A stretch of 64,000 bases of DNA from Pseudooceanicola nanhaiensis (GTDB taxonomy: Bacteria > Pseudomonadota > Alphaproteobacteria > Rhodobacterales > Rhodobacteraceae), in assembly GCF_020171315.1 (NCBI RefSeq), contig NZ_JAIUZP010000001.1, forward strand, positions 434,001-498,000, written 5' to 3'. Below are positions 21,508-38,069 of this stretch, one piece after another. The notes under the pieces are model-generated. The model ran no database searches. It saw only the letters and a program-made list of their open reading frames with translations, and was not told the DNA's origin. Both the position numbers and the translations under genes were made by a program. Every line of letters begins with the position of its first letter. The stretch's first letter is position 1.

Positions 21508-22962
21508 ATGTCCTCTGCCCAGCTGGATGCCCTGTCTGCACGGGCGCGCGAAGACCTCGCGCGGCTGAGCTATCCTGCGCGGCCGTGGGTGCCCGCGCGG
21601 AGGGTGGACGGTCGGGCCGTGCGCGACGTGGTGATCGTGGGCGGCGGGCAGAGCGGGATGACGATCGCCTTCGGGCTGGCCCGGGAGGCGGTGCACAATG
21701 TGGAGGTGCTGGACCGCAACCCGGCGGGCGCTGAGGGCGTCTGGCGGCGCTTCGCCCGGATGGAGACGCTGCGCACCCCGAAGCATGTGATCGGCCCGGA
21801 CCTGGGCGTGCCCTCTCTGCTGCCGCAGGCCTGGTACGAGGCGCGCTTCGGTGCCGGAAGCTGGGAGGGGGTCGAGAAGATCCCGCGGCCGCTCTGGCAT
21901 GATTACCTGCTCTGGCTGCGCTCCGTGCTGGACCTGCCGATCCGCAACGGGGTCAGCGTGGAGGATATCGCGCCCTTCGGGGAGGACCTGCTGGAAGTGA
22001 CCACGCGCGACGCCGGGGGGGTGACGAAAGTCCTGACGCGGTCGGTCGTGCTGGCCAGCGGGATCGAGGGGGCGGGCGTCTGGACCGTGCCGGACATGAT
22101 CGCGGCCGAACTGCCGCGGGGGCTTTATGCCCATACCTCCGAACCGATTGATTTTGCCGCCCTGAAGGGCCGCCGGGTGGCGGTGCTGGGGGCCGGGGCC
22201 TCGGCCTTCGACAATGCGGCGGAGGCGCTGGCGGCCGGGGCGGCCTCGGTCGATCTCTTCGCGCGGCGCAGCCGGTTGCCCGCCGTGAACCCCTACCGCT
22301 GGATGGAGTTCTCGGGCTTCCTGCGCCATTTCGGCGAACTGCCCGATGCGCTGAAGTGGCGCTTCATGCGGCGCATCTTCACCATGAACCAGCCGCCGCC
22401 GCAGCCGACCTATGACCGCTGCGCCGCCCACGGCGGCTTTCGGGTGCACCTGGGGTGCCCCTTCCTGTCGGTCCGCGAAGGGCCGGGGGGGATCGCCATC
22501 GAGACGCCGAAGGGCGTGGTGGAGGCGGATTTCCTCATCGTCGGCACCGGCCTGCGGGTCGATTTCGCCGCCCGGCCCGAACTGGCGCGGATGGCGCCGC
22601 ATGTGGCGCTCTGGGGCGACCGTTTCGATGCGCCCGCGGGCGAGGCGGACCCGGTGCTGGAGAGCTTCCCCTATCTCGGCCGCGCCTTCGCCCTGCAGGA
22701 GAAGGTGCCGGGCCGCGCGCCCTGGGTCAGCCGGGTGCATTGCTACACTTTCGCCGCCATGCCGAGCCTCGCAGGCTCTGCCGGGATCTCGGCGCTGAAA
22801 TTCGGGGCCGAGCGTCTGGTGCGCGGCCTGACAGAGAGATTGTTCCTCGAGGATGCGGAGGCCCACCTCGCCAGCCTTGAGGCCTATGATGAACCCGAAC
22901 TGAACGAGGCCGCGGCCCGGGGCGAGACCCGCGCGCTGGCCGGGGAGGACCGCAGATGCTGA
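21508..22962 (+). CDS. FAD/NAD(P)-dependent oxidoreductase, flavin monooxygenase-like
   Basis: This 484-residue flavoprotein has two dinucleotide-binding folds: VVIVGGGQSGMTIAFGLA near residue 45, for FAD, and VAVLGAGASAFDNAAEAL near residue 230, for NAD(P)H. Between them lies a YHDYL-like IPRPLWHDYLLWLR region, as in single-component FMO/Baeyer-Villiger-type monooxygenases. A later LIVGTGLRVDF matches the ATG-type hinge motif. The FxGxxxHxxxW fingerprint was not seen in its standard form. It opens the plus-strand catabolic cluster with a GGAG site 7 bases before the ATG, and its end overlaps the next gene. Likely role: oxidation of the imported compound or an intermediate; substrate unknown. 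Confidence 0.8.
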   Translation: MSSAQLDALSARAREDLARLSYPARPWVPARRVDGRAVRDVVIVGGGQSGMTIAFGLAREAVHNVEVLDRNPAGAEGVWRRFARMETLRTPKHVIGPDLGVPSLLPQAWYEARFGAGSWEGVEKIPRPLWHDYLLWLRSVLDLPIRNGVSVEDIAPFGEDLLEVTTRDAGGVTKVLTRSVVLASGIEGAGVWTVPDMIAAELPRGLYAHTSEPIDFAALKGRRVAVLGAGASAFDNAAEALAAGAASVDLFARRSRLPAVNPYRWMEFSGFLRHFGELPDALKWRFMRRIFTMNQPPPQPTYDRCAAHGGFRVHLGCPFLSVREGPGGIAIETPKGVVEADFLIVGTGLRVDFAARPELARMAPHVALWGDRFDAPAGEADPVLESFPYLGRAFALQEKVPGRAPWVSRVHCYTFAAMPSLAGSAGISALKFGAERLVRGLTERLFLEDAEAHLASLEAYDEPELNEAAARGETRALAGEDRRC

Positions 22963-23978
22963 ACACTGTCACCACCGATGACCGCGAGACCCGGATCACC
23001 GAGAGCCGCGAGAAGATCCAGGCGCCCTTCGAGCTGGATCCGACGCTCTGCCTCTACTCGCCGCAGGACAATGTCGACAGCCTCGAACATCCGCGCATCG
23101 CCCATTGGATCGACTACATCCTGCACCGCTACGAGCCCGCGCTGCCGCAGGCCGAGAAGCGCGTGCTGCTGATGATGCCCTGCACCAAGACCAAGCCCTA
23201 TCCCTTCTCCTCCGAGCATCAGGCGATCAACAGCCGCCTGCTGGCGGAAGGCTTTGCGCCGGTGGGGCAGACCTATCTGCCCGAGGAACTGCAGGACCGG
23301 CTGGAGCCGCCGTTTCCGCGCGACGTGCTGAACCTTTCGGTTCTGTCGAACGGCAAGGGGACCGTGATCCACCGCGCCGTGATCTCGGAGCCGATGGCGC
23401 TGGTGCCCTACGAGGATATCGCGGAGTACGAGGATCGCCCGTCGCCTGCCACCGCCTATGACGATCCCGGCCTCTTCGAGAAGCGCGGTAACGCCGTGGC
23501 GCCCTGGCGGGCCGATTCGACCGCGACGCGGGTCTCGGCCACGCGCTGGAAGTGGGGCGAGGAGGAGAAGCGCGCCTATGTGCTGATGCACAACGAGATG
23601 GCGCGGATCCTTGCCGACAGCCTGAAGCGGATCGGCGGCTATTACACCGACCGGATCGCCTGGGTCGCGCCGGGGCTGACGCACCGCTCCTTCGTGCTGG
23701 GCCGCGAGGAACGCAGCGCCCACAACGTGCCCGCCTACCGCAAGGTGGGCGACGCGCGGCTCGATCTGGTTGGGGCAAACGACCATCTGCCCGAGGGGCT
23801 GAAGATCGAGGCCCTGCCCACCACCGATCATTGCAAGGACGCGATCCGCCGGCTGGCGGCGCGGCTGGGCACCGACGAGTCGAAGGTCGGCGGTGTCTAT
23901 TCCCGCGGCGGAGCCAATGCCACGCCGCTTGCCCTGCCGGAATTGCTGGACGTTCTGGTCCGGCGCGTGTCTGGTTGA
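22956..23978 (+). CDS. DUF5591 (archaeosine-synthase-like domain) protein
   Basis: This 340-residue protein contains VLLMMPCTKTKPYPFSSEH, the PCxxxKPY..S.H motif of the DUF5591 domain found in archaeal TGT-like archaeosine synthase ArcS. The TGT catalytic barrel itself is absent. A second conserved-looking block is GGYYTDRIAWVAPGLTHRSF, and the C-terminus is basic. The gene overlaps the flavoprotein by 7 bases, and an ABC importer follows. Its link to small-molecule catabolism, not tRNA modification, is inferred from context only. Family assignment rests on one motif. Confidence 0.6.
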   Translation: MLNTVTTDDRETRITESREKIQAPFELDPTLCLYSPQDNVDSLEHPRIAHWIDYILHRYEPALPQAEKRVLLMMPCTKTKPYPFSSEHQAINSRLLAEGFAPVGQTYLPEELQDRLEPPFPRDVLNLSVLSNGKGTVIHRAVISEPMALVPYEDIAEYEDRPSPATAYDDPGLFEKRGNAVAPWRADSTATRVSATRWKWGEEEKRAYVLMHNEMARILADSLKRIGGYYTDRIAWVAPGLTHRSFVLGREERSAHNVPAYRKVGDARLDLVGANDHLPEGLKIEALPTTDHCKDAIRRLAARLGTDESKVGGVYSRGGANATPLALPELLDVLVRRVSG

Positions 23979-24077
23979 TTCACGCAAGGTGGGGATACCC
24001 TCGCCTGCATCCGAACCGGGGGGCACAATCCCGGACGGCAAACGACTGATGTCAAAGACAACATGGAGACAAACAAG

Positions 24078-25115
24078 ATGATGATTTCGCGCCTTTCCCG
24101 CGCTGTTCGCACCGCTGCCGGTGCGGCGCTTGGCCTTGGGCTTGCCCTGAGTGCCGGGATGGCCTCGGCCCAGACGCCGATCAAGTTCTCGCTGGACTGG
24201 AACTTCGAAGGACCTGCCGCGCCCTTCCTCGTCGCACTGGACAAGGGCTACTTCAAGGAAGAGGGCCTCGACGTCACCATCGACACCGGCGCGGGCTCGG
24301 TCGAGCCGCTGAACCGTCTGGCCTCGGGCACCTATGACATGGCTTTCGGCGACATCAACTCGCTGATCAAGTTCCTCGATGCCAACCCCGGGACCCCGAT
24401 CAAGGCGGTCTACATGCTCTACAACAACCCGCCCTTCTCGGTGGTGGGTCGCAAGAGCCTTGGCGTGACCACGCCGAAGGACCTCGAAGGCAAGACGCTG
24501 GGCGCGCCCGCGCCTGACGGGGCCTATGCCCAGTGGCCGATCTTCGTGGCCGAGAACGACATCGACGCCTCCAAGGTCACCATCGAGAACGTCGGCTTCC
24601 CGGTGCGTGAACCGATGCTGGTCTCGGGCCAGGTGGACGCGATCACCGGCTTCGCCTTCTCGACCTACCTCTCGGTGCGCCGCAACGTGGAAGACCCCGA
24701 GGACGTGACCGTCTTCCTGATGTCGGACTACGGCGTCGATCTCTACGGCAACACCATCATGGTGACCCCGGCCTTCGCCGAGGAGAACCCTGAAGCGGTC
24801 AAAGGCTTCCTGCGCGCCTTCACCAAGGGCCTGAAGGACGTGGTTGCCGATCCCGAGGGCTCGCTCGAATCCGTGCTCTCGCGGAACCCGGTTGCCAAGA
24901 AGGACATGGAGCTGGAGCGCCTGACCTACGCGCTGGAAAACAACATCGTCACCGATGAAGTGAAGGCCAACGGCTTCGGCAAGGTCGACATGGACCGCCT
25001 GACGCATTCGATCGAACAGCTGGGCCTGACCTACGATTTCAAGGCCACCCCGGAAGCGTCTGCGATCTTCGACAGCTCCTTCCTGCCCTCGGACGAGGTT
25101 CTGGCCGTCGAATAA
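24078..25115 (+). CDS. ABC transporter substrate-binding protein (NMT1/ThiY/SsuA-like)
   Basis: This periplasmic binding protein has a signal peptide (MMISRLSRAVRTAAGAALGL, then LALSAGMASAQ) and the type-2 fold pattern of the NMT1/SsuA family. It shows IKFSLDWNFEGPAAPFLVAL, GYFKEEGLDVTIDTGAGS, YDMAFGDINSLIKF and a later GKTLGAPAPDGAYAQWP. Relatives bind formylaminopyrimidine, taurine, nitrate or riboflavin-like molecules, so a small N-heterocycle is a reasonable guess. The ATG at 24078 is preferred: GGAG lies 9 bases upstream. It is followed by a stable hairpin, then the ATPase and permease. Confidence 0.88.
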   Translation: MMISRLSRAVRTAAGAALGLGLALSAGMASAQTPIKFSLDWNFEGPAAPFLVALDKGYFKEEGLDVTIDTGAGSVEPLNRLASGTYDMAFGDINSLIKFLDANPGTPIKAVYMLYNNPPFSVVGRKSLGVTTPKDLEGKTLGAPAPDGAYAQWPIFVAENDIDASKVTIENVGFPVREPMLVSGQVDAITGFAFSTYLSVRRNVEDPEDVTVFLMSDYGVDLYGNTIMVTPAFAEENPEAVKGFLRAFTKGLKDVVADPEGSLESVLSRNPVAKKDMELERLTYALENNIVTDEVKANGFGKVDMDRLTHSIEQLGLTYDFKATPEASAIFDSSFLPSDEVLAVE

Positions 25116-25139
25116 TCCCCGATCGGGACGCAAGACCTC

Positions 25140-25166
25140 TCGGGGGGCCGCCAGTCGGCCCCCCGA
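25140..25166 (+). promoter_or_regulatory. Intercistronic hairpin after the binding-protein gene
   Basis: A perfect 11-bp stem TCGGGGGGCCG/CGGCCCCCCGA with a five-base loop has no T-run. Such structures often protect the binding-protein mRNA so that it is made in excess over the membrane components. Confidence 0.65.
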
Positions 25167-25198
25167 TGCAAGACCGGCACCGACTACAGGGGGACAGG

Positions 25199-25978
25199 GT
25201 GCAACCTTTTATCGAATTCGATGGTGTTGATCACGGCTATGGCGCCGAGGGGCCGCTGGCTGTTCAGGACCTGCATGTGTCCATCGGCGAAGGGGAGTTC
25301 GCCGCCGTCGTGGGGCCTTCGGGCTGTGGCAAATCCACCTTCATGAAACTGACCACCGGGCTTCAGTTCCCCCGTGCCGGCACGATCACCGTGGCGGGCG
25401 AGCGCGTGACGAAGCCCGTGCGCATGGCGGGCATGGCGTTTCAGGCGCCGAACCTGCTGCCGTGGCGCACGACGATGGAAAACATCCTGCTGCCGCTGGA
25501 AATCGTGCCGCCGCACCGGCAGCAGTTCCGCGCCAAGAAACAGGAATACCGCGAACGGGCCGAGGCGCTGCTGGCCCGCGTCGGGCTGGAGGGGGCGGGC
25601 GAGAAGCACCCGTGGGAGCTGTCGGGCGGGATGCAGATGCGCGCCGCGCTCTGCCGTGCGCTGATCCACCAGCCCAAGCTCCTGATGCTGGACGAACCCT
25701 TTGGCGCGCTGGATGCCTTCACGCGCGAGGAACTGTGGTGCGTGATCCGCGACCTGCATGCCGAGACCGGCGTGACCGTGATCCTCGTCACCCATGACCT
25801 GCGCGAGGCGGTCTTCCTTGCGGATCGTGTCTTTGCCATGTCGGCCCGTCCCGGCCGCATCCTTGCCGAGCGGCGGATCGAGCTGGAGCGCCCGCGCGAC
25901 CTCGAACTGACCTATACGGCGGAGTTCCAGTCCCTCGTGCACGAGCTGCGCGAACATATCGTGACGGCGCGCAAATGA
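25199..25978 (+). CDS. ABC transporter ATP-binding protein
   Basis: This ATPase of about 259 residues belongs to the nitrate/sulfonate/taurine importer class. It has Walker A GPSGCGKST, signature LSGGMQMRAALCRALI, Walker B LLMLDEPFGALD and the H-loop THD. A GTG start at 25199 is chosen because AGGGGGA stands 6-7 bases upstream; the ATG at 25166 falls inside the hairpin. The stop overlaps the permease start (ATGA). It drives uptake with the 24078 binding protein. Confidence 0.93.
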   Translation: MQPFIEFDGVDHGYGAEGPLAVQDLHVSIGEGEFAAVVGPSGCGKSTFMKLTTGLQFPRAGTITVAGERVTKPVRMAGMAFQAPNLLPWRTTMENILLPLEIVPPHRQQFRAKKQEYRERAEALLARVGLEGAGEKHPWELSGGMQMRAALCRALIHQPKLLMLDEPFGALDAFTREELWCVIRDLHAETGVTVILVTHDLREAVFLADRVFAMSARPGRILAERRIELERPRDLELTYTAEFQSLVHELREHIVTARK

Positions 25979-26745
25979 ACCGACAGAGCCTCTTCCTCCG
26001 CATCTCGCCCATTGCCTCGCTGATCATCGTGCTGGCGCTCTGGGAACTCATCGTCATCGTCTTCAACATTCCCGGCTACCTGCTGCCGAAGCCCTCGACC
26101 ATCTTCGCGGCCATCGTGGAATACTGGCCCGCGATCATGCGCGAGAGCACCTATACGCTGGTCACCACCATGATCGGCTTCGGCCTCGCGGTGGTCTTCG
26201 GCCTCGCGCTGGGGCTGCTGGTGGGCTACTCGGCCACGATCTATGCCGGGCTCTATCCGCTGATGGTCGCCTTCAACGCCATCCCCAAGGTCGCGGTGGT
26301 GCCGATCCTCGTGCTGTGGTTCGGCATCGGCGCGGTGCCGGCGGCGCTGACGGCCTTCCTGATCTCCTTCTTCCCGATCGTGGTGAACGTGGCCACCGGC
26401 CTCGCCACCATCGAGAGCGAGCTGGAAGACGTGCTCAAGGCGCTGGGCGCCTCCAAGCTGGATATCATGCGCAAGGTCGGCATTCCGCGTGCGCTGCCCT
26501 ATTTCTTCGGCTCGCTGAAGATCGCCATCACGCTGGCCTTCGTGGGCTCGGTCCTGTCGGAAAGCGTCGCCTCGAACCACGGCATCGGCAAGTTCATGAT
26601 GATGGCGCAGGCGCAGTTCCAGGTGCCGCTGATTTTCGCCGGTCTCTTCGTCCTCGGGTTCATGGGCATCGCGATGTACCTCGTGATGGCCTGGATCGAG
26701 AAGCGGATGACCGGCTGGGCCCACCGCTCGGGCTTCTCGAACTAA
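25975..26745 (+). CDS. ABC transporter permease
   Basis: This 256-residue inner-membrane permease of the SsuC/TauC/ThiX class has about six helices. It contains the EAA loop LEDVLKALGASKLDIMRKVGIPRALPYFFGSLK, recognisable by ALGAS...I..P. It overlaps the ATPase by four bases and precedes the decarboxylase-like gene by 9 bases. Only one permease is present, so it probably works as a homodimer. Confidence 0.93.
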   Translation: MNRQSLFLRISPIASLIIVLALWELIVIVFNIPGYLLPKPSTIFAAIVEYWPAIMRESTYTLVTTMIGFGLAVVFGLALGLLVGYSATIYAGLYPLMVAFNAIPKVAVVPILVLWFGIGAVPAALTAFLISFFPIVVNVATGLATIESELEDVLKALGASKLDIMRKVGIPRALPYFFGSLKIAITLAFVGSVLSESVASNHGIGKFMMMAQAQFQVPLIFAGLFVLGFMGIAMYLVMAWIEKRMTGWAHRSGFSN

Positions 26746-26754
26746 GGGAATGAC

Positions 26755-27729
26755 ATGACGATCAAACTCACCTTCGGCGTCAGTGAAAGCGACCGCATGG
26801 GCCCGCTCGTGGATGGCACCGTGCCCATCGAGGGGGTCGAGGCCACGTGGAACGTCCACGGGGTGCAGGCGCTCTTCAACAAGCAGCTGTCGGACCATGA
26901 ATACGACGCCTGCGAATTCCCGCTGGGCACCTACCTGCGCGACATGGAAGGGGCGCGGCGTTACCTCGCCGTGCCGGTTTTCCCCTCGCGCCATTTCCGC
27001 CTGTCCTGCGTCTTTACCCACCGCGAGGCCGGGATCACCAAGCCTGCCGACCTTGCGGGCAAGCGCATCGGCATCCCCGTCTGGGACATGGCCGCCGCCG
27101 TCTGGCTGCGCGGGATGTTCCAGGATTACTATGACCTGCCGCGCGCGGCCCCGATCTATGTCACCAACGGGCTGGAAGAGGCCCGCACCGGGGACGAACA
27201 CCCGCAGTTCTATCCCGACGGCTTCCAGATCGAGCATTCCCATGCCGAGGGCGGCCTGGCCGGAATGCTGGCGCGGGGCGAGATCGACGCGCTCTACACC
27301 GCCCGCGCGCCCTCGACCTATGTCGAGGGGGGCAGCGTGACCCGGCTCTTCGATGATCCCATGTCTGCCGACATGGCCTATTACGAGATGACGGGCATCT
27401 ATCCCCCGATGCATGTGCTCTGCGTGAAGCGTGAGATCGCCGAGGCCAATCCCGGCCTGACCCGCGCGCTCTTCGATGCCTTCACCAAGGCGCAGGAGGA
27501 GGCACGCGCCCGGCTCTATGACAGTGCCGCGCTCAGCGTCATGCTGCCCTGGGCGCTGGAGCATCTGACCATGACCGAGCGCAAGCTGGGCAAGGATTAC
27601 TGGTCGACCGGGCTGGAGCGGAACCGCGACACGCTCGACACGATCATCCGCTACACGCGCGAGGACGGGCTGATCGAAGGCGCCTTCAGCGCGGCGGACC
27701 TCTTCGACACGGATATGGCTGACACCTGA
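26755..27729 (+). CDS. 4,5-dihydroxyphthalate decarboxylase-like / NMT1-like protein
   Basis: This 324-residue protein resembles the family of 4,5-dihydroxyphthalate decarboxylase, which shares the type-2 periplasmic-binding-protein fold. Features are [56 protein letters not shown] and [22 protein letters not shown]. There is no signal peptide, so it should be cytoplasmic and enzymatic, or an unusual ligand-binding protein. It is co-transcribed with the importer. Which reaction it catalyses cannot be told; decarboxylation of a cyclic acid is one possibility. Confidence 0.75.
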
Positions 27730-27745
27730 GGAAGGAGAACGACCC

Positions 27746-28627
27746 ATGGCGAAGGAGATACTGGTAGGGTTCGGCGTTGACGTCGACGCGGTGGCGGGCT
27801 GGCTTGGCTCCTACGGCGGCGAGGACAGCCCGGACGACATCTCGCGCGGGCTCTTCGCGGGCGAAGTGGGCGTACCCCGCCTGCTGAAGCTGTTTGAGCG
27901 CGAGGGGATCAAGACCACATGGTTCATCCCCGGCCATTCGGTCGAGACCTTCCCGGAACAGACCGCCGCCGTGGTCGCCGCGGGCCACGAGATCGGGATG
28001 CATGGCTATAGCCACGAGAACCCGATCGCCATGACACCCGAGCAGGAAGAGGCCGTCCTCGACAAGTGTATCGCCCTGATCACCGAGGTCTCGGGCAAGT
28101 CGCCGCGCGGCTACGTTGCGCCGTGGTGGGAGTTTTCGAACGTCACCAACGAGCTGCTGCTGAAGAAGGGCATCAAGTACGACCACTCGCTGATGCATGA
28201 CGACCACACGCCCTACTACGTGCGCGTCGGCGACAAGTGGACCAAGATCGACTACACCGCGCAGCCCGAGACGTGGATGAAACCGCTGGAGCGCGGCGAG
28301 GAGACCGACCTGATCGAGATCCCGGCCTCGTGGTATCTCGACGATCTGCCGCCGATGATGTTCATCAAGGGTTCGCCCAACAGCCACGGTTTCGTCAATC
28401 CGCGCGATATCGAGCAGCTCTGGACCGACCAGTTCGACTGGGTCTACCGCGAGATGGATTATGCCGTCTTCCCGATCACCATCCATCCGGATGTCGCGGG
28501 GCGGCCGCAGGTGCTGATGATGCTGGAACGGCTGATCAAGCACATCAAGAGCCACGAGGGCGTGCGCTTCGTCACCATGGAAGAGATGGCCGACGACTTC
28601 GCCAAGCGCTGTCCGCGGAAGGGCTGA
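27746..28627 (+). CDS. Polysaccharide-deacetylase-fold hydrolase, HpPgdA-like
   Basis: This 293-residue CE4-fold enzyme is strikingly like Helicobacter pylori HP0310 (PgdA) as I recall it: start [20 protein letters not shown], then [32 protein letters not shown], and [23 protein letters not shown]. The metal triad is Asp14, His86 and His90. The Helicobacter protein was annotated as a peptidoglycan deacetylase, but its fold also resembles cyclic imidases and allantoinase PuuE. No signal peptide is present, so here a cytoplasmic cyclic-amide hydrolase is more likely than a wall enzyme. Context supports ring opening of an N-heterocycle. Confidence 0.82.
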
Positions 28628-28947
28628 TGTGCGCGCTCTGCGGCATCCTCGGCTGTGACGATCACTGGACGGCCGCGGTGGCGCGGGAGGGCGTCTATTC
28701 GCGCCTGACCTCGCCACAGGCCCACCGGGCCGAGGCCGCCGCCCGCGCGCGGGTCGTGAACCGGGCGCTGGCGCCTTTGCGGATCACCTTCGGGGATTGG
28801 CAGAAGCGCTCCTACGTGCTGCGCGGGCCCACCGGCAAGACGGCGATCTTCGAGGGGCTCAACCACCTCTGGGCCGAGGCAGAGGCGCTGGCCGGGCGCG
28901 AGATCGACCCGCTCGATCCCGCGTACCTCGACCGCCTCGAAGGCTGA
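28627..28947 (+). CDS. Small Cys/His-containing protein (106 aa)
   Basis: I do not recognise a named family. The N-terminus [14 protein letters not shown] has three closely spaced cysteines and a histidine that could bind a metal. The rest is basic, helical-looking sequence (RLTSPQAHRAEAAARARVVN and ITFGDWQKRSYVLRGPTGKT). The start overlaps the hydrolase stop (TGATG), and the CobW-type GTPase begins 7 bases after it. This order suggests a metal-handling or adaptor role for the neighbouring hydrolase. Confidence 0.65.
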   Translation: MCALCGILGCDDHWTAAVAREGVYSRLTSPQAHRAEAAARARVVNRALAPLRITFGDWQKRSYVLRGPTGKTAIFEGLNHLWAEAEALAGREIDPLDPAYLDRLEG

Positions 28948-28954
28948 TCTTCCG

Positions 28955-29914
28955 ATGATCCCGGTGACCCTGCTGACCGGCTTCCTCGGCTCCGGCAAGA
29001 CGACGCTGTTGCAGCGCATGCTGGGCGATCCCGCCATGGCGGGCACCGCCGTGCTGATCAACGAATACGGCGAGGTGGCGCTGGATCATCACCTGCTGGA
29101 GCGGATCGACGAGACCGTGATGCTGATGAAGTCCGGCTGCATCTGCTGTACGGTGCGGGGCGAGGTGGCCCAATCCATTCTCGACCTGATCGCGCTGCGG
29201 GGGCAGGGGCGGGCCGCCTTCGACCGGATCGTGATCGAGACGACGGGGCTGGCGGACCCATGGCCCGTGCTCTCGACCCTGCGCGCCCATCCGGTGCTGC
29301 AAAGCCAGGTCAGGGCCGGGGGCGTCATTACCACCGTGGACGCGGTGAACGCGCCTGCCATGCTCTCGGGCAGCACCCGGCGCGAGGCGCTGCGCCAGAT
29401 CGCGGCGGCGGATGTGCTGGCGCTGACCAAGACGGATCTTGCCTCCGCGCCCGGCCTGCCGCTGCAACTGGCCGCGCTGAACCCCACCGCCCGGATGCTG
29501 GATGCCCGCACCGACTCGGTGGCCGAGATCGCGCTGGCCGCCCGCGAGGGCCGGCAGGTGCCGCCGCTGGAGGCGCACCACGACCACGGGGCTGGCATGA
29601 CCTCGACCACCATGGTCTTCGAGGAGGAGATCGACTGGACCGCCTTCGGCGTCTGGCTGACCCTCTTGCTCAATCGTCACGGGGACCGCATCCTGAGGGT
29701 GAAGGGTATCCTGAACCTGAAGGGCGAAGAGCGCCCGGTCGCCATCCACGGGGTGCAGCGTCTGGTCCACCCGCCGCACCACATGACAGCCTGGCCCGAT
29801 CAGGACCGCCGTTCGCGCCTTGTTTTCATCATGGAGGGGATCGACCCTTCCCTCTTGCGCCGATCCTTCGATCTGTTCCAGAAGATCGGCCAAAGACAGG
29901 AGACGACATCATGA
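28955..29914 (+). CDS. CobW/COG0523 family GTPase, putative metal chaperone
   Basis: This 319-residue G3E GTPase has Walker A GFLGSGKTTLL, the metal-binding CxCC motif GCICCTVRG (Cys62, Cys64, Cys65), the G-domain motif ALTKTD, and a His-rich stretch EAHHDHG. A CobW C-terminal domain follows (RILRVKGILNLKGEERPVAIHGVQ). The family inserts Zn, Co or Fe into client enzymes. Likely clients here are the metal-dependent CE4-fold hydrolases or the amidohydrolase in the same cluster. Its end overlaps the asparaginase start as ATGA. Confidence 0.88.
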   Translation: MIPVTLLTGFLGSGKTTLLQRMLGDPAMAGTAVLINEYGEVALDHHLLERIDETVMLMKSGCICCTVRGEVAQSILDLIALRGQGRAAFDRIVIETTGLADPWPVLSTLRAHPVLQSQVRAGGVITTVDAVNAPAMLSGSTRREALRQIAAADVLALTKTDLASAPGLPLQLAALNPTARMLDARTDSVAEIALAAREGRQVPPLEAHHDHGAGMTSTTMVFEEEIDWTAFGVWLTLLLNRHGDRILRVKGILNLKGEERPVAIHGVQRLVHPPHHMTAWPDQDRRSRLVFIMEGIDPSLLRRSFDLFQKIGQRQETTS

Positions 29915-30900
29915 AACGCGTGGTCTGGATTTCGACCGGCGGCACCATCGCCAGCAAGGCCCAATCCCCCGGCGGCCCCGTGTCCGCCGCAATGGACGGC
30001 GCCGCCCTGATGGAGATGCTGCACGAACGCCCCGAGGGCATCGAGGTGGAGCTGGTGAACTTCCCCTCCGTGGGCTCCGGCGCGCTGACCATCCCCGACG
30101 TGACGGCGATCTGCCGCGCGATCTCGCAGGCGGTCGGGCGCTCGGACGTGCACGGGGTGATCGTCACCCATGGCACCGACACGATGGAGGAAAGCGTCTT
30201 CCTCGCCGAGACGCTGGTGGGCGGTGAGAAGCCGGTGGTCTTCACCGGGGCGCAGCGCCACGCGGGCGATCCCGACACCGACGGGCCGCGCAACATCGCC
30301 GACGCCCTGCGGGTGGCCGCCAGCGATCGTGCCATGGGGCTGGGGGCGGTGATCCTCTTCGAGGGCGACATCCACGCCGCCGCCACGGTGACCAAGGTCC
30401 ATGCCTCGCGCACTGATACCTTCCGCTCGCCGGGCCTCGGCAAGCTGGGCGAGGTGGATCAGGGCCGCGTGCACATCTATCGCAAGCCCGCCCATCGGCA
30501 CCGGGTGGCGCTGGCCGCCGACCAGCAGCCGGAAGAGCGCGTGGATTACGTGCGCCTCGCCCTCGGCATGACGCCCGATATCCTCGACTGGTTCGCGCAA
30601 CGCGGCACCCGCGGCGTGGTGATCGATGCCTTCGGTCGCGGCAATGGCCCGCGGGGCTGGGGCGCGGCGGTCAAGCGTCTGACCGAGAAGGGCGTGCCCG
30701 TGCTGATCTGCTCGCGCTGCGCCGAAGGCCAGACCGGCGCGATCTATGGCGAGGACGGCGGCGCCGTCACCTTCGTCAAGAACGGGGCGATCCTTGCCGG
30801 TGCCCTGCCGGGCGTGAAGGCGCGGCTGCTGCTCTCGGCCCTGCTGGGCCGCGGCGCCACCAAGATCGAGATCGAACAGGCCATCGGCGCCTACCAGTAA
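29911..30900 (+). CDS. L-asparaginase/glutaminase family amidohydrolase
   Basis: This 329-residue protein has the family motifs VVWISTGGTIASKAQ (first catalytic Thr) and VIVTHGTDTMEESVFL (second Thr-Asp), plus the conserved FTGAQRHAGDPDTDGPRN. No signal peptide is seen, so it acts in the cytoplasm. In this cluster it may hydrolyse an open-chain amide intermediate instead of asparagine; that is inference. It ends the first transcription unit, which closes with a terminator. Confidence 0.9.
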   Translation: MKRVVWISTGGTIASKAQSPGGPVSAAMDGAALMEMLHERPEGIEVELVNFPSVGSGALTIPDVTAICRAISQAVGRSDVHGVIVTHGTDTMEESVFLAETLVGGEKPVVFTGAQRHAGDPDTDGPRNIADALRVAASDRAMGLGAVILFEGDIHAAATVTKVHASRTDTFRSPGLGKLGEVDQGRVHIYRKPAHRHRVALAADQQPEERVDYVRLALGMTPDILDWFAQRGTRGVVIDAFGRGNGPRGWGAAVKRLTEKGVPVLICSRCAEGQTGAIYGEDGGAVTFVKNGAILAGALPGVKARLLLSALLGRGATKIEIEQAIGAYQ

Positions 30901-30928
30901 GGCCGCGCCCCCCGGTCCACGTCACAGC

Positions 30929-30961
30929 AGGCGCTGCCCATTCCTTGGGCGGCGCCTTTTT
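30929..30961 (+). terminator. Rho-independent terminator after the asparaginase gene
   Basis: The stem AGGCGC.GCCCA/TGGGC.GCGCCT has one mismatch and is followed by TTTTT. It divides the catabolic cluster into two transcription units. About 200 bases follow before the next gene. Confidence 0.8.
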
Positions 30962-31163: not shown

Positions 31164-32645
31164 ATGACGAAGGACGGCGCGTCCCACCTTGCCTCGCTGC
31201 GCGACGGGCGGAGCATCTTCATCGACGGGAAGAAGGTGGAGGACGTCACCACCTCGCCCGCCTTCCGCAATGCCTGTGCCTCGGCCGCGCAGCTCTACGA
31301 CTACCAGGCCGCGCCGGAGAACATCGAGGCGATGACCTTTGCCTCGCCCAGGACCGGGGAGCGTGTGAACAAGTCGTGGATGCTGCCGCGCAGCCATGCG
31401 GAGCTGGTCGAACGGCGCAAGTCCATCGAGCTCTGGTCCGCCCAGACCTGCGGTATGCTGGGCCGCTCGCCCGATCACGTCGCCTCGACCTTCGTGGGCT
31501 TCCGCATGGGGCTGAACGTCTACAAGGAGAACGATCCGAAGCGGGCAGGCGCGCTGGAGAGCTACTTCGACTACATCCGCGACAACGATCATTTCCTGTC
31601 CTACGTGATCATCAACCCGCAGGCGGACAAGAACAAGACCGCCGGCGGGCAGGCCGATCCGCATCTCGTGGCCTCCATCGTGGACGAGGACAGCGAGGGC
31701 ATCACCATCCGCGGCGCCAAGATGCTGGCCACCTCGGGCGTGCTGGCGAACGAGATCATGGTCTCGGGCTTTCAGGCGATCCAGGCCGGGGACGAGGCCT
31801 ATGCCTTCACCTGCGCCATGCCGATCGGCACCAAGGGGCTGCGGATGCTGTCCCGCCGCTCCTACGAGGCCGAGGCGACATCGACCTTCGACTACCCGCT
31901 GTCCTCGCGCTTCGACGAGAACGATGCGGTGGTGCATTTCGATGATGTGAAGGTGCCATGGGACCGTGTCTTCGTGCACAAGGACCTGAAGATGGCGCAG
32001 GCGCAGTGGCATGACACCCGCGCCCACGTCATGCAGAACTACCAGTGCATGATCCGCCTCAAGGTGAAGCTGAAGTTCCTCCTCGGCCTTGCCCGCAAGA
32101 TCGCTGAGCTGAACAACATCATCAACTTCCCGCAGGTGCGCGAGACGATGGGGCACCTGGCGGCCAAGGTCTCCAACATCGACGCGCTGATCATCGCCAT
32201 GGAGGCGCAGGGCGAGCACTACAACGGCTACTACGTGCCCGACCGGTCGATCCTGTGCACCGCGCAGGTGATCGCCCAGACGACCTATCCTGAGGTGGTG
32301 GAGCAGATCCGCGTGCTCTCGGGCGGGGGCATGATCATGGTGCCGTCCTCCTACGCCGACTTCGAGAACCCCGAGACGGCAGCGATCATCGGCAAGACCC
32401 AGCGGTCCCCTATCGCCAACAGCGAGGAGCGGGTGAAGCTGATGAAACTGGCATGGGACGCCGTGGGCTCCGAATTCGGCTCGCGCCACCTGCAGTACGA
32501 GATGTTCTATTCCGGCGCGACCTTCGTGACCCGGGGCAATTCCTACCGCTTCTTCGACTGGGGCGAGGTGAAGGACTTCGTCGACGGCTTCATGGGCACC
32601 TATGGTCTTCCGGGCGAGAATGCCCTGAGTTCCGCGGCGGAGTGA
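31164..32645 (+). CDS. HpaB-type flavin-dependent monooxygenase, oxygenase component
   Basis: This 493-residue member of the 4-hydroxyphenylacetate 3-hydroxylase family uses FADH2 supplied by a separate reductase. It shows the family regions LRDGRSIFIDGKKVEDVT, an N-terminal helical domain, RGAKMLATSGVLANEIMV, and FDDVKVPWDRVFVHKD. The C-terminal helix bundle contains LSGGGMIMVPSSYADF. The partner reductase is encoded at 36208. GGAG lies 8 bases before the ATG. Relatives hydroxylate phenols and also pyrrole-2-carboxylate-type heterocycles, so ring hydroxylation is the likely reaction. Confidence 0.9.
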   Translation: MTKDGASHLASLRDGRSIFIDGKKVEDVTTSPAFRNACASAAQLYDYQAAPENIEAMTFASPRTGERVNKSWMLPRSHAELVERRKSIELWSAQTCGMLGRSPDHVASTFVGFRMGLNVYKENDPKRAGALESYFDYIRDNDHFLSYVIINPQADKNKTAGGQADPHLVASIVDEDSEGITIRGAKMLATSGVLANEIMVSGFQAIQAGDEAYAFTCAMPIGTKGLRMLSRRSYEAEATSTFDYPLSSRFDENDAVVHFDDVKVPWDRVFVHKDLKMAQAQWHDTRAHVMQNYQCMIRLKVKLKFLLGLARKIAELNNIINFPQVRETMGHLAAKVSNIDALIIAMEAQGEHYNGYYVPDRSILCTAQVIAQTTYPEVVEQIRVLSGGGMIMVPSSYADFENPETAAIIGKTQRSPIANSEERVKLMKLAWDAVGSEFGSRHLQYEMFYSGATFVTRGNSYRFFDWGEVKDFVDGFMGTYGLPGENALSSAAE

Positions 32646-32649
32646 GGCA

Positions 32650-33825
32650 ATGAAGGACATCGACCACATCCGCCAGCAGGCCTTCGTCGACCATGGGCCC
32701 GCGCCCTTCCGCATGACGCAGACCGGGGCGCTCTCGGACCTCAGCTTCGCGGTGAAGGACCTCTTCGACATCGCGGGCACCGTCACCGCCTGCGGCAACC
32801 CTGACCGGCTGGAGGGCACGCCTGCGGTGGCCACTGCGCCCTCGGTCCTCGCGGTGCTGGCGCAGGGGGCGGAGTGCATCGGCAAGACCCACACCGACGA
32901 GGTCGCCTGCGGCATGTTCGGCACCAACGAGTTCTTCGGCACGCCGGTGAACCCTGCCGCGCCCGACCGGGTGCCGGGGGGCTCCTCCTCGGGCTCCGTC
33001 TCGGCGGTTGCGGCGGGTTTGTGCGATTTCGCGCTGGGCTCGGACACCGGCGGGTCGGTCCGGGTGCCGGCCAGCTTCTGCGGGGTCATGGGCCTGCGCA
33101 CGACCTATGGCCGGATCACCACGGCTGGCGTCATGGCCATGGCGCCCAGCTTCGACACCGTGGGCTGGTTCGCCCGCGACGCGGAGGTCCTCAAACGCGT
33201 GGGCACCGCCTATTTCGGAGAGATCGCCGAGGCGACGGGCACCCGTCTGCTGCTGGCGCGCGATGCCTTCGACATTCCCCGGGCCGATATCGGCGCGGCC
33301 CTGCTGCCCAAGGCCCGCGCACTGGGGCCCGAGGCGGAGGTGACGCTCTACCAACAGGGCATCCAGCACTGGCTGGCCACCTTCCGTCCGCTGCAACTGG
33401 GCGACCTCTGGGCGACCCTTGGCGACTGGTCCGAGGTGCCGGGCCGCCGGGTGAGCGAAAGCATCGCCGAGCGCATGGCACTGGCGAAATCCATCCCCGC
33501 CGAGGCGATTGCCGCCGCGATCCCGCAGCGCGAGGCGCTGACCGCCTACCTGACGGACCTGCTGGGCGAGGATGGTGTGATCATGATCCCCACCGCCCAT
33601 GACCTGCCCCCGGTGCGGCAGGCCCCGCTGGAGGCGCTGATCGAGTTCCGCGAGAAGACGCTGGCCCTGACCTGCGTCGCCAGCCTCTGCCGCCTGCCGC
33701 AGCTGAACCTGCCCGCCACCACGGTGGAGGGCGTGCCCGTGGGCCTCAGCTTCATCGCCGGGCCGCGTGGGGACGAACGGCTGCTCTCCATGGCGGCGCA
33801 TTGGGCCAAGGGCCTTGCCGCATGA
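32650..33825 (+). CDS. Amidase signature family protein
   Basis: This 391-residue Ser-cisSer-Lys amidase has catalytic Lys36 (FAVKDLFD), Ser112 within GGSSSGS, and the nucleophile Ser136 in SDTGGSVRVPA. It is shorter than many family members, which usually have 450-500 residues. It probably cleaves an amide released by ring opening. It follows the monooxygenase by 4 bases and overlaps the next gene by four bases. Confidence 0.9.
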   Translation: MKDIDHIRQQAFVDHGPAPFRMTQTGALSDLSFAVKDLFDIAGTVTACGNPDRLEGTPAVATAPSVLAVLAQGAECIGKTHTDEVACGMFGTNEFFGTPVNPAAPDRVPGGSSSGSVSAVAAGLCDFALGSDTGGSVRVPASFCGVMGLRTTYGRITTAGVMAMAPSFDTVGWFARDAEVLKRVGTAYFGEIAEATGTRLLLARDAFDIPRADIGAALLPKARALGPEAEVTLYQQGIQHWLATFRPLQLGDLWATLGDWSEVPGRRVSESIAERMALAKSIPAEAIAAAIPQREALTAYLTDLLGEDGVIMIPTAHDLPPVRQAPLEALIEFREKTLALTCVASLCRLPQLNLPATTVEGVPVGLSFIAGPRGDERLLSMAAHWAKGLAA

Positions 33826-34736
33826 GCGGGCCGACGCGCGACTTCGCCGGCTACGGGCAGCACCCGCCGGTGACCCATTGGCCGGGCGGCAAGCGGCTGG
33901 CGCTGGTGGTGGTGGTGAACTTCGAGGAGGGGGCAGAGCCCTCGATCCCCGACGGCGACCCGGCCACCGAACTGGCCCTGACCGACGGCATCCCCGGCGA
34001 GGTGCCCGCAGGCACCCGCGACCTCGTGGCGGAGAGCCTCTTCGAATACGGCTCCCGCGTGGGGTTCTGGCGGCTCTACGAGATGTTCCGCGAGACCGGC
34101 GTGCCGCCGACCATGGGCCTGTGCGCGCAGGCCATGCGCCGCAACCCGGAGGCGGCGGAGGCCATCGCGGCGGCGGGCTATGACATCTGCTGTCACGGCG
34201 ACCGCTTCGCCCGGCACTTCCTGATGGAAGAGGCCGAGGAGGCCGCCACCATCGCCCGCGCCATCGACGGGCTGACGCAGATCATGGGCCGCGCGCCTTC
34301 CGGCTGGCAGAGCCGCTATGCCCCCTCGATCCACACCCGCCGCCTGCTGATGGCGCATCCCTCGATCCTCTACGATGCGGACAGCTATGCCGACGATCTG
34401 CCCTATTGGGTGGACTGCGAGGGCACCGACCGGCTGGTGGTGCCCCATACCTTCACGCTCAACGACAACCGCCTGCCGTCCGGCAAGCTGGGCACGGCGG
34501 AGGATTTCCTTGATCACCTCTCGGCGGCCTTCCGGGTGCTGCACGCGGAAAGCGCGCGTATCCCGCGCCTGATGACGATCAGCCTGCACAACCGGATCAG
34601 CGGCCAGCCCGCGCGTTTCGACGCGATCCGGCGGTTCCTCGACCACGCGCTCTCGCACGAGGATGTCTGGTTCGCCTCGCGCGGGGAGGTCGCCCGCCAC
34701 TGGGCCGCGCATCACCCGCCGGAGGGCGCGGCATGA
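33822..34736 (+). CDS. PuuE-like polysaccharide-deacetylase-fold hydrolase (cyclic amidase type)
   Basis: This 304-residue enzyme resembles the metal-independent allantoinase PuuE and related cyclic-amide hydrolases. It has LALVVVVNFEEGAEPSIPDG near the N-terminus, EYGSRVGFWRLYEMF, CHGDRFARHF with the conserved HG, and SLHNRISGQPARF at the end. No secretion signal is present. It is a second CE4-fold protein in the cluster but clearly different from the HpPgdA-like one. The start at 33822 overlaps the amidase stop (ATGA). Ring opening of an imide or lactam is the inferred role. Confidence 0.83.
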   Translation: MSGPTRDFAGYGQHPPVTHWPGGKRLALVVVVNFEEGAEPSIPDGDPATELALTDGIPGEVPAGTRDLVAESLFEYGSRVGFWRLYEMFRETGVPPTMGLCAQAMRRNPEAAEAIAAAGYDICCHGDRFARHFLMEEAEEAATIARAIDGLTQIMGRAPSGWQSRYAPSIHTRRLLMAHPSILYDADSYADDLPYWVDCEGTDRLVVPHTFTLNDNRLPSGKLGTAEDFLDHLSAAFRVLHAESARIPRLMTISLHNRISGQPARFDAIRRFLDHALSHEDVWFASRGEVARHWAAHHPPEGAA

Positions 34737-36211
34737 GCGCGCTGCTTGTCCGGGGCGGGCTGGTCTGCACCGCGGGCGAGGCCCCGCGCCGCGCCGATAT
34801 CCTGATCGCCCATGGCCGCATCCTGCGGGTGGCCCCCGACATCGACGCGCCCGAGGCGCAGGTGATCGACGCCAGCGACCGGATCGTCATGCCCGGCCTC
34901 GTGAACAGCCACACCCACGGCCATGCCAACCTCGCCAAGGGCGCGGCGGACCGCTGGACGCTGGAGGCCTCACTGACTAACGGCCCGTGGATGGGCGGTG
35001 CGCGGGACGAGGAGACGGTCTATCTCTCCACGCTGCTCGGCGCGGCGGACATGCTGTCGAAGGGCTGCACCGCCTGTTTCGATCTCGTTTACCTGCTGCC
35101 GGGGCTGGAACCCTCGCATCTGGCCGCCGTGGCCCGCGCCTATGCCGACGCGGGCATGCGCGCCGTGCTGGCGCCGATGGTGGCCGACCGCAGCTTCGTC
35201 GAGTCCATTCCCGGCCTGATGCAGGCGCTGCCCGCCGACCTTCAGGCAGAGCTGACCGGCGCGCCGCCGCAGGCTGAGGGCATGCTGGCCCGGCTGAAGG
35301 CGCTCCTCTCCGAGCCGCTGCCAGAGGGGATTTCCTATGCCGTGGCCCCCACGATCCCGCACCAGTGTTCCGACCGGCTGATCACCGGCTGCGCCGAACT
35401 GGCGGCGGGCCATGACATCCCGCTGCACATGCATATCGCGGAATCGCGCCTTCAGGCCGAGGTCGCGCGGCAGGTCTACGGCGTCTCACCGATCGCGCAT
35501 CTCGACGATCTCGGCGTGCTGGGGCCCTCCTTCGTGGCGGCCCATGCGATCTGGCTCGACGGCGATGACCTCGACCGACTGGCCCGGGCTGAGGCGGCGG
35601 TGGCCCATATCCCGGCCTCGAACTTCCGGCTGGGCACCGGCATCGCGCCGCTGGGGCAGATGCTGGACCGCGAGATGCGGGTGGGTCTGGCGACGGACGG
35701 GGCCAATTCCTCCGACGCGCTCAACATGTTCGAGGCGATGCGCCTTGCCTCCGACGCCTCGCGCGTCTGGGGCACGCCGCGCGCCGACTGGCTCTCCTGC
35801 GCCGAGGCCTTCCGGCTGGGGACCGAGGGCGGGGCCGATGTGCTGGGCCTGACCAACGCGGGCCGGATCGCCGCCGGGGAGGATGCGGACCTCGTGCTGC
35901 TGAACCTCGGCTCTGTCAACTTCCTGCCGCTGACGGACCCGGTGGCGCAGCTTGTGACGGCCGAGAACGGCGCCTCTGTCACCGACGTGATCGCGGCGGG
36001 CCGGGTGGTGATGCGCGAGGGCCGGCTGACGACCATCGACATGGCCGACCTGCGCGCCCGGATCGAGGACAAGCTGCCCGCGTGGCATGCGGCCACCGCC
36101 GGGGCCCGGGCGCTCTCTGCCCGGATGGAGCCGCTGATCGTGGCCCATTTGGAGGGGCGGGCACAACCCGACCTCGGCTTCACCCGCATGGTGGGGGAGG
36201 GGCCGCGATGA
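34733..36211 (+). CDS. Amidohydrolase superfamily deaminase/chlorohydrolase-type enzyme
   Basis: This 492-residue metal-dependent hydrolase shows the HxH ligand pair in NSHTHGHAN (His60, His62), a third His in LHMHIAES, a fourth in AHAIWL and the Asp in ATDGANSSD. That order is typical of the AtzA/TrzA/cytosine-guanine deaminase subgroup. Composite beta-sandwich segments flank the barrel at both ends. It overlaps both neighbours by four bases. It likely removes ammonia or another leaving group from a ring or amidine; the substrate is unknown. Confidence 0.87.
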   Translation: MSALLVRGGLVCTAGEAPRRADILIAHGRILRVAPDIDAPEAQVIDASDRIVMPGLVNSHTHGHANLAKGAADRWTLEASLTNGPWMGGARDEETVYLSTLLGAADMLSKGCTACFDLVYLLPGLEPSHLAAVARAYADAGMRAVLAPMVADRSFVESIPGLMQALPADLQAELTGAPPQAEGMLARLKALLSEPLPEGISYAVAPTIPHQCSDRLITGCAELAAGHDIPLHMHIAESRLQAEVARQVYGVSPIAHLDDLGVLGPSFVAAHAIWLDGDDLDRLARAEAAVAHIPASNFRLGTGIAPLGQMLDREMRVGLATDGANSSDALNMFEAMRLASDASRVWGTPRADWLSCAEAFRLGTEGGADVLGLTNAGRIAAGEDADLVLLNLGSVNFLPLTDPVAQLVTAENGASVTDVIAAGRVVMREGRLTTIDMADLRARIEDKLPAWHAATAGARALSARMEPLIVAHLEGRAQPDLGFTRMVGEGPR

Positions 36212-36732
36212 GCGCGATCACCCCGCAGGATTTCCGCACCGCCTGTTCGCGCTTTGCCACCGGGGTGACGATCATCACCACCACCGACGGGGCGACTCGC
36301 GCGGGGCTGACGGCGAACAGCTTCTCCTCCGTCTCGGTCGAGCCGCCGCTGGTGCTCTGGTCGCTGCGGCTGCAGTCCCGCGCCCGCGACGTCTTCGAAC
36401 GGGCCGGGCGGTTCGCCGTCAACGTGCTGGCGGCAGAGCAGGCGGAGCTTGCCCGCCATTTCGCGCGCGGCCATGACGATCCGTTCCATGGTCTCGCCCT
36501 CGAAGGCCCGGCCAAGGCCATCGCGGGGGATGCGGCGCAGCTGCCGCTGATCCCCGGGGCGCTCGCGCAGCTCATCTGCCGCACGGACCAGATCGTGACG
36601 GCGGGTGATCACCTGATCTTCATCGGCGAGGTCGAGGCGCTCACCCAGCGGGTCGGCGCGCCGCTTCTCTTCTACGCGGGCGGCATGGCCGACGGTGCCC
36701 CCGCCCTCTGTCAGCCGGACCCCGGCGCCTGA
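36208..36732 (+). CDS. Flavin reductase (HpaC-like)
   Basis: This 174-residue FMN/FAD reductase domain protein begins MSAITPQDFRTACSRFATGV. The flavin-binding stretch GLTANSFSSVSVEPPLVLWSL and FAVNVLAAEQAELARHFA follow. It provides reduced flavin for the HpaB-type oxygenase encoded five kilobases upstream in the same operon. The start overlaps the amidohydrolase stop as ATGA. Confidence 0.92.
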   Translation: MSAITPQDFRTACSRFATGVTIITTTDGATRAGLTANSFSSVSVEPPLVLWSLRLQSRARDVFERAGRFAVNVLAAEQAELARHFARGHDDPFHGLALEGPAKAIAGDAAQLPLIPGALAQLICRTDQIVTAGDHLIFIGEVEALTQRVGAPLLFYAGGMADGAPALCQPDPGA

Positions 36733-36750
36733 CCAGCCATAGAGACCCCC

Positions 36751-37497
36751 ATGACGCTTCCCTATCCTTACCCCGATCCCGCCACGCTGCTGCGCGTGGG
36801 CCATATCATGCCCTCCTCGAACACCTGGGCCGAGCCGCTGACCTACGCGATGAACATGCCTGTGGCGGATCGCGTCTCGCAGCATTTCAGCCGGACCGAG
36901 GTGCAGACGCTGGCCCTGAATGACGCCTCCAATGCGCATTTCCAGAACGCCCCGATGGTGGCGGCGGCCAAGCTGCTGGCGGATGCGCCCTTGAATTCGT
37001 TGGTCTGGAACGGCACCTCGGCCAGCTGGCGCGGGCTGGAGACGGACCAGGTGCTCTGCGAGGCGCTGACCGAGGCGACCGGCGTGCCCGCCACCACCGC
37101 CACGCTGGGCTTCTACGAGACCTATCGCCGCTTCGGCTTCAAGGACATTGCCCTGGCGCTGCCCTATACCGCCGACGTGTCGGAGCAGATCGTGGCGGAA
37201 TACCAGCGGCAGGGCTACAGCGTGCCCAAGGCGGCCTACCTCGGCATCGCCCGCAACGTCGAGATCGGCAACACGCCCGCCGACCGGATGCGGGCGCTGC
37301 TGCGCGAGGCGGCCGAGAAGGGCGGCGACTGCATCGCGGTGGTCTGCACCAACTTCCCGGCCACCGCACTGGTGGAAGAGATGGAGGACGAGCTGGGCCT
37401 GCCCATCGTCGACTCGATCGCCGTGACCTTCCTCGAGGCGTGCCGCGTTGCGGGCTTCACGCCGAGTTGTCCGGGCTGGGGCAAAATCCTCGCCTGA
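36751..37497 (+). CDS. Maleate isomerase / Asp-Glu racemase superfamily enzyme
   Basis: This 248-residue protein resembles maleate cis-trans isomerase and arylmalonate decarboxylase. It has LLRVGHIMPSSNTWAEPLTY at the N-terminus, a Trp-Asn-Gly-Thr segment (LVWNGTSASW) where a catalytic Cys is often found, and a second half with DCIAVVCTNFPATALVEEM that keeps a Cys. The first site lacks the usual Cys (WNGTS), which may mean a one-Cys decarboxylase-like or altered mechanism. As the last gene it would act on the linear product, for example maleate or maleamate to fumarate, which could feed the TCA cycle. Confidence 0.78.
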   Translation: MTLPYPYPDPATLLRVGHIMPSSNTWAEPLTYAMNMPVADRVSQHFSRTEVQTLALNDASNAHFQNAPMVAAAKLLADAPLNSLVWNGTSASWRGLETDQVLCEALTEATGVPATTATLGFYETYRRFGFKDIALALPYTADVSEQIVAEYQRQGYSVPKAAYLGIARNVEIGNTPADRMRALLREAAEKGGDCIAVVCTNFPATALVEEMEDELGLPIVDSIAVTFLEACRVAGFTPSCPGWGKILA

Positions 37498-38062: not shown

Positions 38063-38069
38063 GATGACC

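Follow-up and report, generated by a model that had tools for sequence, protein, structure and literature searches.

A two-locus gene set of Pseudooceanicola nanhaiensis and its possible role in the breakdown of a guanine-like nitrogen heterocycle

The stretch of DNA analysed here, called the window, comprises 64,000 nucleotides of the alphaproteobacterium Pseudooceanicola nanhaiensis (NCBI RefSeq assembly GCF_020171315.1, contig NZ_JAIUZP010000001.1, positions 434,001 to 498,000 of the forward strand). Sixteen plus-strand genes, designated A to P, fill positions 21508-37497 of the window and are arranged as two units. All genes named in an original prediction, made from the letters of the DNA, were found on this strand at the positions given, and the encoded families agree with its proposal that they serve to import and degrade a nitrogenous ring compound. 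The two units also co-occur elsewhere, so that the prediction withstands the refutation by lack of co-occurrence that it had set for itself. With moderate confidence, we discuss the more specific view that the region may belong to a gene set, split over two loci, for the catabolism of a substituted guanine-like (2-aminopyrimidinone-type) nitrogen heterocycle (N-heterocycle). This set comprises about two dozen genes over two chromosome sites and is apparently undescribed.

The two units are tightly packed, as predicted, with 12 of 15 gene junctions overlapping or measuring at most 18 nucleotides. The three wider junctions lie between the genes for the DUF5591 protein and the binding protein (84 nucleotides), the binding protein and the ATPase (50 nucleotides), and the asparaginase and the HpaB-type enzyme (263 nucleotides). 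The last of these gaps separates the units and contains a plus-strand hairpin of 12 pairs with a T-rich tail (30929-30957), the longest terminator-like one in the scan and compatible with two transcription units. Taken alone this hairpin is weak evidence in view of the scan totals: 12 terminator-like sites were found where 6.1 were expected, and no promoter-like sites where 1.6 were expected.

Eight of the genes (A, B, F, K to N and P) form the core of the set. Their identities to the best matches in G017, a second species of the same genus, and on a plasmid of Rhizobium sp. ACO-34A are given in this order. Gene A (21508-22962, with its start at 21508 or 21604) encodes an FMO-like flavoprotein (Pfam Pyr_redox_3, 55.9 bits; Lys_Orn_oxgnase, 43.6 bits; 56-57% in both) and is followed by gene B (22956-23978), encoding a DUF5591 protein whose PF17884 match (27.7 bits, cut-off 26) covers model positions 1-43 of 150. 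The product of gene F (26755-27729; 60-61%), originally described as decarboxylase-like, is a full-length homologue of the Pht5 type, the 4,5-dihydroxyphthalate decarboxylase family (9jp7, residues 3-319 of 324, E 2.8e-51); no signal peptide was seen by eye at its start, and the context of a 41% relative was not decisive.

The core genes of the second unit begin with gene K (31164-32645, the start being probable; 77 and 73%), encoding a flavin-dependent monooxygenase with both HpaB Pfam domains (PF11794, 292.2 bits; PF03241, 203.5 bits) that scores under the cut-off for 4-hydroxyphenylacetate 3-monooxygenase HpaB-1 (TIGR02309, 335.9 against 480.2 bits). Gene L (32650-33825; 69 and 65%) encodes an amidase (PF01425; NCBIfam PRK08310, 431.5 bits, cut-off 391). 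Gene M (33822-34736; 69 and 67%) encodes a PuuE-like CE4-fold hydrolase; PuuE was among the known families cited in the original prediction, and the 302.4 bits of this protein fall under the cut-off of 424.6 for allantoinase PuuE (TIGR03212), a model for which a PuuE-OHCU fusion in another genome, G333, reaches 463.3 bits. The TRZ/ATZ-type amidohydrolase (deaminase) encoded by gene N (34733-36211; PF01979, 184.4 bits; 52 and 51%) keeps His60, His62, His232, His234, Glu237, His271 and Asp322 in a five-sequence alignment.

The last core gene, P (36751-37497; 58 and 59%), encodes an arylmalonate-decarboxylase/EutA-like protein that meets the gathering score of the Pfam Amdase family (PF17645, 73.3 against 25.9 bits) and fails the NCBIfam equivalog cut-offs for arylmalonate decarboxylase/EutA (64.9 against 225 and 77.9 against 318 bits). 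Its nearest PDB chains, a putative maleate isomerase (E 5.4e-13) and an arylmalonate decarboxylase (E 7.1e-13), are effectively tied. Residues 88-90 are GTS, where arylmalonate decarboxylase also has GTS. Maleate isomerases are defined by two catalytic cysteines; gene P keeps the second (Cys199) and has no cysteine aligned with the first of this family. The maleate isomerase assignment was therefore rejected, which leaves both the maleate-isomerase-type enzyme and the C4-acid end point of the original prediction unsupported.

The core is inherited as a real unit, with its gene content kept across two orders. In G017 all eight genes lie in one block (C4 139.5-130.1 kb, 52-77% identity), with genes G, H and I 12-14 kb away on the opposite strand (85, 55 and 51%) and an asparaginase gene (35%) alongside. 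The ACO-34A plasmid carries a reordered version, in which G and J stand divergent to K-L-M-N-O-P; next come an AraC regulator gene and then A, B and F (44-83%). No match to H or I was obtained in this plasmid stretch. Genes of both units are hence found together in G017 and ACO-34A, in agreement with their original treatment as one cluster. In a further relative, G005, all 16 cluster proteins have counterparts at 93-100% identity. At an identity of at least 77%, HpaB marks the genomes G000, G005 and G017 among 60 relatives, with one other genome at 59%; among plasmid records, identities above 60% to HpaB, to the Pht5-type gene and to the aminotransferase discussed below occur in ACO-34A alone. 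After these, the highest HpaB identity in the class sample (61%) is that of G203, where tblastn detects a flavin reductase and an amidase in the same stretch, and none of the FMO, DUF5591, Pht5-type, PuuE-like or deaminase genes.

The remaining genes of the window cluster are less constant. Those for the importer encode an NMT1-type periplasmic binding protein (C, 24063-25115; PF09084, 154.3 bits), an ATP-binding cassette (ABC) ATPase (D, 25166-25978; PF00005) and an ABC permease (E, 25975-26745; PF00528). They were rejected as core members, their matches in G017 and ACO-34A reaching only 27-28, 37-39 and 25-26% with no ortholog there. Gene O (36208-36732, refined start) encodes an HpaC-type flavin reductase (PF01613, 129.1 bits; 48% in ACO-34A). 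An accessory module is formed by genes G (27746-28627), H (28627-28947, refined limits) and I (28955-29914), with the asparaginase-family amidohydrolase gene J (29911-30900, refined start; PF00710, 179.4 bits; 35% in G017, 44% in ACO-34A) as a further accessory gene. H encodes a small Cys-rich protein of 106 amino acids with no Pfam or NCBIfam match, and I a CobW-type GTPase (PF02492, 141.2 bits; PF07683, 78.2 bits). G encodes a CE4-fold hydrolase of the HP0310 subfamily (3qbu, E 1.3e-156 over 1-292; 83% in ACO-34A). For gene G, cyclic imide hydrolase (imidase) is a putative label. An ungapped alignment with the HP0310 type shows that gene G keeps Asp12, Asp14, His86, His90, His247, Tyr23, Trp127, Trp196 and Leu201, which the HP0310 study gives as metal and cavity residues; there, HP0310 is described as inactive on typical polysaccharides or allantoin, and a small substrate is favoured (PMC3084791).

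Genes G, H and I are a separate, widespread module. Matches to G occur in 117 plasmid records and matches to H in 55, the latter all below 60%. On plasmids of Rhizobium and Thioclava, G-H-I in this order accompanies other transporters (two inspected: L022 10001-12260 and L023 10001-14458). The ability of this module to stand alone speaks for an arrangement of two or more independent pathways side by side, in which a cyclic-imide module (CE4, small Cys-rich protein, CobW and asparaginase) would neighbour an unrelated HpaB unit. So does the company of HpaB relatives at 54-57% identity, which accompany cupin, amidase and DUF2848-type genes instead. However, the FMO, DUF5591 and Pht5-type genes of unit 1 cluster with unit 2 genes in G017 and ACO-34A, and the CE4 gene (83-85%) and an asparaginase gene lie near the core in both. 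Independent pathways are unlikely in our judgement.

The original prediction could not show that much of the set is located outside the window, at another site of the genome. This second locus, cluster II, encodes an AraC regulator, an 8-oxoguanine-deaminase-family protein, a class III aminotransferase, an aldehyde dehydrogenase, an NMT1-type ABC importer, an old yellow enzyme (OYE) and an aldo-keto reductase (AKR), as well as a small glyoxalase-like protein recognised by eye. It adjoins the core in G017 and ACO-34A; in the genome of the window it occupies C1:868.8-881.5 kb, at a distance of about 400 kb from the window. Both co-inheritance and linkage of the two loci are evident in these other genomes. 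Across the three genomes, nine proteins of cluster II are 50-86% identical and the AraC regulators 58-70%; in ACO-34A, the AKR gene lies upstream of G and the AraC regulator gene inside the core. The cluster II deaminase passes the NCBIfam cut-off for 8-oxoguanine deaminase (PRK08203, 612.9 against 532 bits), and the AKR is named pyridoxal 4-dehydrogenase in the ACO-34A record. At an identity of at least 69%, the aminotransferase marks G000, G005 and G017 among the 60 relatives, two others having 50 and 53%. DUF5591, HpaB and the aminotransferase thus mark the same 3 of 60 genomes; were genes placed at random, the probability that two of them coincide in one given trio of the 60 would be 1 in 34,220.

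An upstream motif near GCGnCAAAACTTGnC was found in the deaminase/aminotransferase and the permease/binding-protein regions of all three genomes (6 of 6 regions), after a search of 19 intergenic regions, 13 of which were scored jointly. The motif set reaches a score of 237; six shuffles, made within 20-base blocks and with 600 seeds each, gave 193-205. This difference is only indicative, given the common descent of orthologous regions and the small number of shuffles. The motif also lies 137 bases before HpaB in ACO-34A, and joint control of the core and cluster II is indicated there at the sequence level.

DUF5591 proteins retain the pattern PC-x3-KPY-x2-S-x2-H in 6 of 6 aligned relatives, and six-frame translations of the loci examined restrict it to DUF5591 loci (14 matches, several being copies). 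We take this pattern to be the motif of the archaeosine synthase ArcS. A study of this enzyme, whose examined text does not contain the word 'motif', reports lysine transfer by ArcS onto the tRNA-base precursor preQ0, also when preQ0 is in nucleoside form (PMC11298593). As a full protein, gene B fails the NCBIfam models for ArcS (25.6 against 440 and 24.9 against 600 bits), which touch it at residues about 37-94 only, the same stretch as PF17884. An alignment with AF0587 displays the same pattern, yet is non-significant (E 0.92 and 0.51). A PHROGs search returned a single weak match (residues 39-94, 23.6 bits), and tblastn against phage records gave three Sulfolobus virus matches inside residues 40-114 (E 0.5-0.6). 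The putative link of gene B to preQ0 chemistry is therefore based on one short motif.

DUF5591 relatives are rare. They were detected in 3 of 60 relatives, 3 of 385 class genomes and 1 of 390 order genomes (the window's own, which is also counted in the first two samples), in 3 of 24 genomes of the order of G333, and in 1 of 72,556 plasmid records; a pattern-based scan of an 84,980-species collection, which detects close relatives only, found one locus. In G333 the gene adjoins molybdenum hydroxylase subunits and shares its stretch with a cytosine-deaminase-family gene, a xanthine permease, the PuuE-OHCU fusion and a cyanuric-acid-amidohydrolase-family gene (548.1 bits, cut-off 360). It adjoins a molybdenum hydroxylase subunit in G801 and a cytidine-deaminase-fold gene in G411. 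This company of nucleobase-type genes is counted for a guanine-like heterocycle. The G333 region around DUF5591 (contig C3, about 751-782 kb, L014/L015) is itself a large N-heterocycle stretch, holding in addition two Rieske-type genes (one by eye), isochorismatases, an M20 peptidase and a dihydroorotase-like gene.

Taken together, the purine-type deaminases, the aminotransferase with the aldehyde dehydrogenase, the decarboxylase, the monooxygenase pair, the CE4-fold hydrolases and the amidases point to a ring with an amino group and a carbon side chain, and a 2-aminopyrimidinone-fused ring appears to fit best as substrate type. We infer each reaction, the reaction order and the substrate class from the protein families. 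The NMT1-type ABC importers would take up the substrate, and the FMO, OYE and AKR would oxidise or trim its side chain. An aminomethyl group could be converted to a carboxylate by the class III aminotransferase and the aldehyde dehydrogenase, followed by decarboxylation by the Pht5-type enzyme, and a nitrile or amidine branch may be handled by the DUF5591 protein. Deamination would fall to two enzymes, the window's own deaminase and the 8-oxoguanine-deaminase-family protein encoded in cluster II, after which HpaB and the flavin reductase would hydroxylate the ring. The PuuE-like and HP0310-like CE4 hydrolases would then open it, the amidase and asparaginase would hydrolyse amides, and the arylmalonate-decarboxylase-like enzyme would perform a decarboxylation.

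Pterins bear the same 2-amino-4-oxopyrimidine ring, which counts for catabolism of pterins or folate fragments as a different explanation. A 6-substituted pterin would be converted to pterin-6-carboxylate, decarboxylated, deaminated to a lumazine and opened. The decarboxylase, aldehyde dehydrogenase and deaminases fit such a route, and gene N matches 2paj (E 6.7e-33, not its best match), annotated in the PDB as 'putative cytosine/guanine deaminase' and which we take to be an isoxanthopterin deaminase. However, the class III aminotransferase and the ArcS-type motif would be left roleless, and no such cluster was found in the literature searched, most subscription journals being outside its coverage; we consider a pterin substrate quite unlikely.

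Little probability is likewise assigned to the catabolism of vitamin-type pyrimidines or pyridines (the thiamine pyrimidine or B6 vitamers), in which oxidation of an aminomethyl or hydroxymethyl group would be followed by decarboxylation and ring opening. The NMT1/THI5-type binding proteins, the aminotransferase with the aldehyde dehydrogenase and the naming of the AKR in ACO-34A are in its favour. Against it stand the cluster II deaminase, which reaches the equivalog level for 8-oxoguanine deaminase, and the position of DUF5591 amid purine-type genes in G333. Furthermore, no thiamine, B6 or other RNA switch exceeded the cut-off at 20.5-38.5 kb, where the top RNA match is RsmY-like (26.3 bits) and overlaps the terminator hairpin after sdhB, and vitamin-type pyrimidines, like pterins, leave some core genes without a role.

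Several observations weigh against a two-locus set for a guanine-like compound. The co-occurrence amounts to two cases plus ACO-34A, about three independent ones, because G000 and G005 are near-identical. The flavin reductase has no match in the fetched G017 stretches, and in G333, G801 and G411 DUF5591 occurs without the core. Gene N falls under every NCBIfam cut-off shown, for example that of 8-oxoguanine deaminase (PRK08203, 247.3 against 532 bits), and a fold search with a structure model of gene B (pLDDT 77.6, pTM 0.81) returned nothing at E 0.001 in PDB or BFVD. Neither the FMO nor the AKR is specific to the set: the former has many 46-54% relatives in varied, non-decisive contexts, and the latter has 61-63% relatives on 13 Roseomonas plasmids, within a sugar-type transporter operon in the one inspected. 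Finally, the motif near GCGnCAAAACTTGnC is absent upstream of both window units, its three sites of at least 12 bits all being outside the cluster.

Among guanine-like compounds, the 7-deazaguanines (queuine, preQ1 and preQ0) are the boldest specific candidate. With them every core gene, including that for the protein with the ArcS motif, would gain a role. For queuine, the FMO, AKR and OYE would remove the cyclopentenyl side chain. The aminotransferase and aldehyde dehydrogenase would convert preQ1 to 7-carboxy-7-deazaguanine for decarboxylation by the Pht5-type enzyme, and the ArcS-motif protein would serve the nitrile branch from preQ0. The deaminases would yield 7-deazaxanthine, HpaB and the flavin reductase would oxidise its pyrrole, and the CE4-fold hydrolases and amidases would open and strip the rings. 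A pathway for these bases at the two loci is a doubtful proposition. To our knowledge, no breakdown route for 7-deazaguanine bases has been described, and no paper on one for queuine-type bases was found in the literature searched. The same search found no described pathway with the present gene set, as originally stated.

Downstream of the cluster, genes for a pyridoxal-phosphate-dependent decarboxylase (38064-39239) and an ABC-membrane protein (39503-40435) are present in G005 and unmatched in the fetched G017 and ACO-34A stretches, and were rejected as members. Further along the window, the minus strand encodes an oligopeptide-type ABC importer at 44142-50083 (an OppC-like permease, a family 5 binding protein and an ATPase with two ABC domains). 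At 51019-57643 the plus strand encodes a UDP-glucose/GDP-mannose dehydrogenase and then several glycosyltransferases; the GC content is higher here (up to 0.74).

Comparison between genomes now delimits the set, dividing it into a core and a second locus together with an exchangeable module, and places a protein with an ArcS-type motif in bacterial catabolism. A 7-deazaguanine substrate, if true, would raise the question of the route by which queuine-type bases are degraded. That the set is common to a marine bacterium and a rhizosphere Rhizobium suggests that the compound is present in both settings.

The set can be compared with several known systems. ArcS and gene B are alike in the DUF5591 motif stretch, whereas the remainder of gene B is unmatched and gene B sits in bacterial catabolic clusters. 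HP0310-type modules on rhizobial and Thioclava plasmids, found also with an asparaginase or amidase, have the same order of CE4 gene, small protein and GTPase; there they accompany other importers and short-chain dehydrogenases/reductases, whereas in the window the module has the Pht5-type gene on one side and the HpaB unit on the other. Plasmid clusters of Thioclava, Roseateles and Caballeronia resemble the window in HpaB (55-57%), flavin reductase and amidase, but have their own branched-chain-type ABC importer, MarR regulator, cupin-type protein and DUF2848 protein, with no annotated FMO, DUF5591, Pht5-type, PuuE-like or deaminase gene alongside. These HpaB clusters recur in the three genera (L019 6480-17379, L020 11446-22658 and L021 9393-20676). 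Bacterial purine and urate degradation shares a PuuE relative, purine-type deaminases and NMT1-type uptake with the present set, and in G333 DUF5591 shares its stretch with a xanthine permease and a PuuE-OHCU fusion. In contrast to that pathway, the present cluster is without OHCU decarboxylase or molybdenum hydroxylase, its PuuE relative is under the PuuE cut-off, and the set adds HpaB, FMO, aminotransferase, Pht5-type and arylmalonate-decarboxylase-like proteins.

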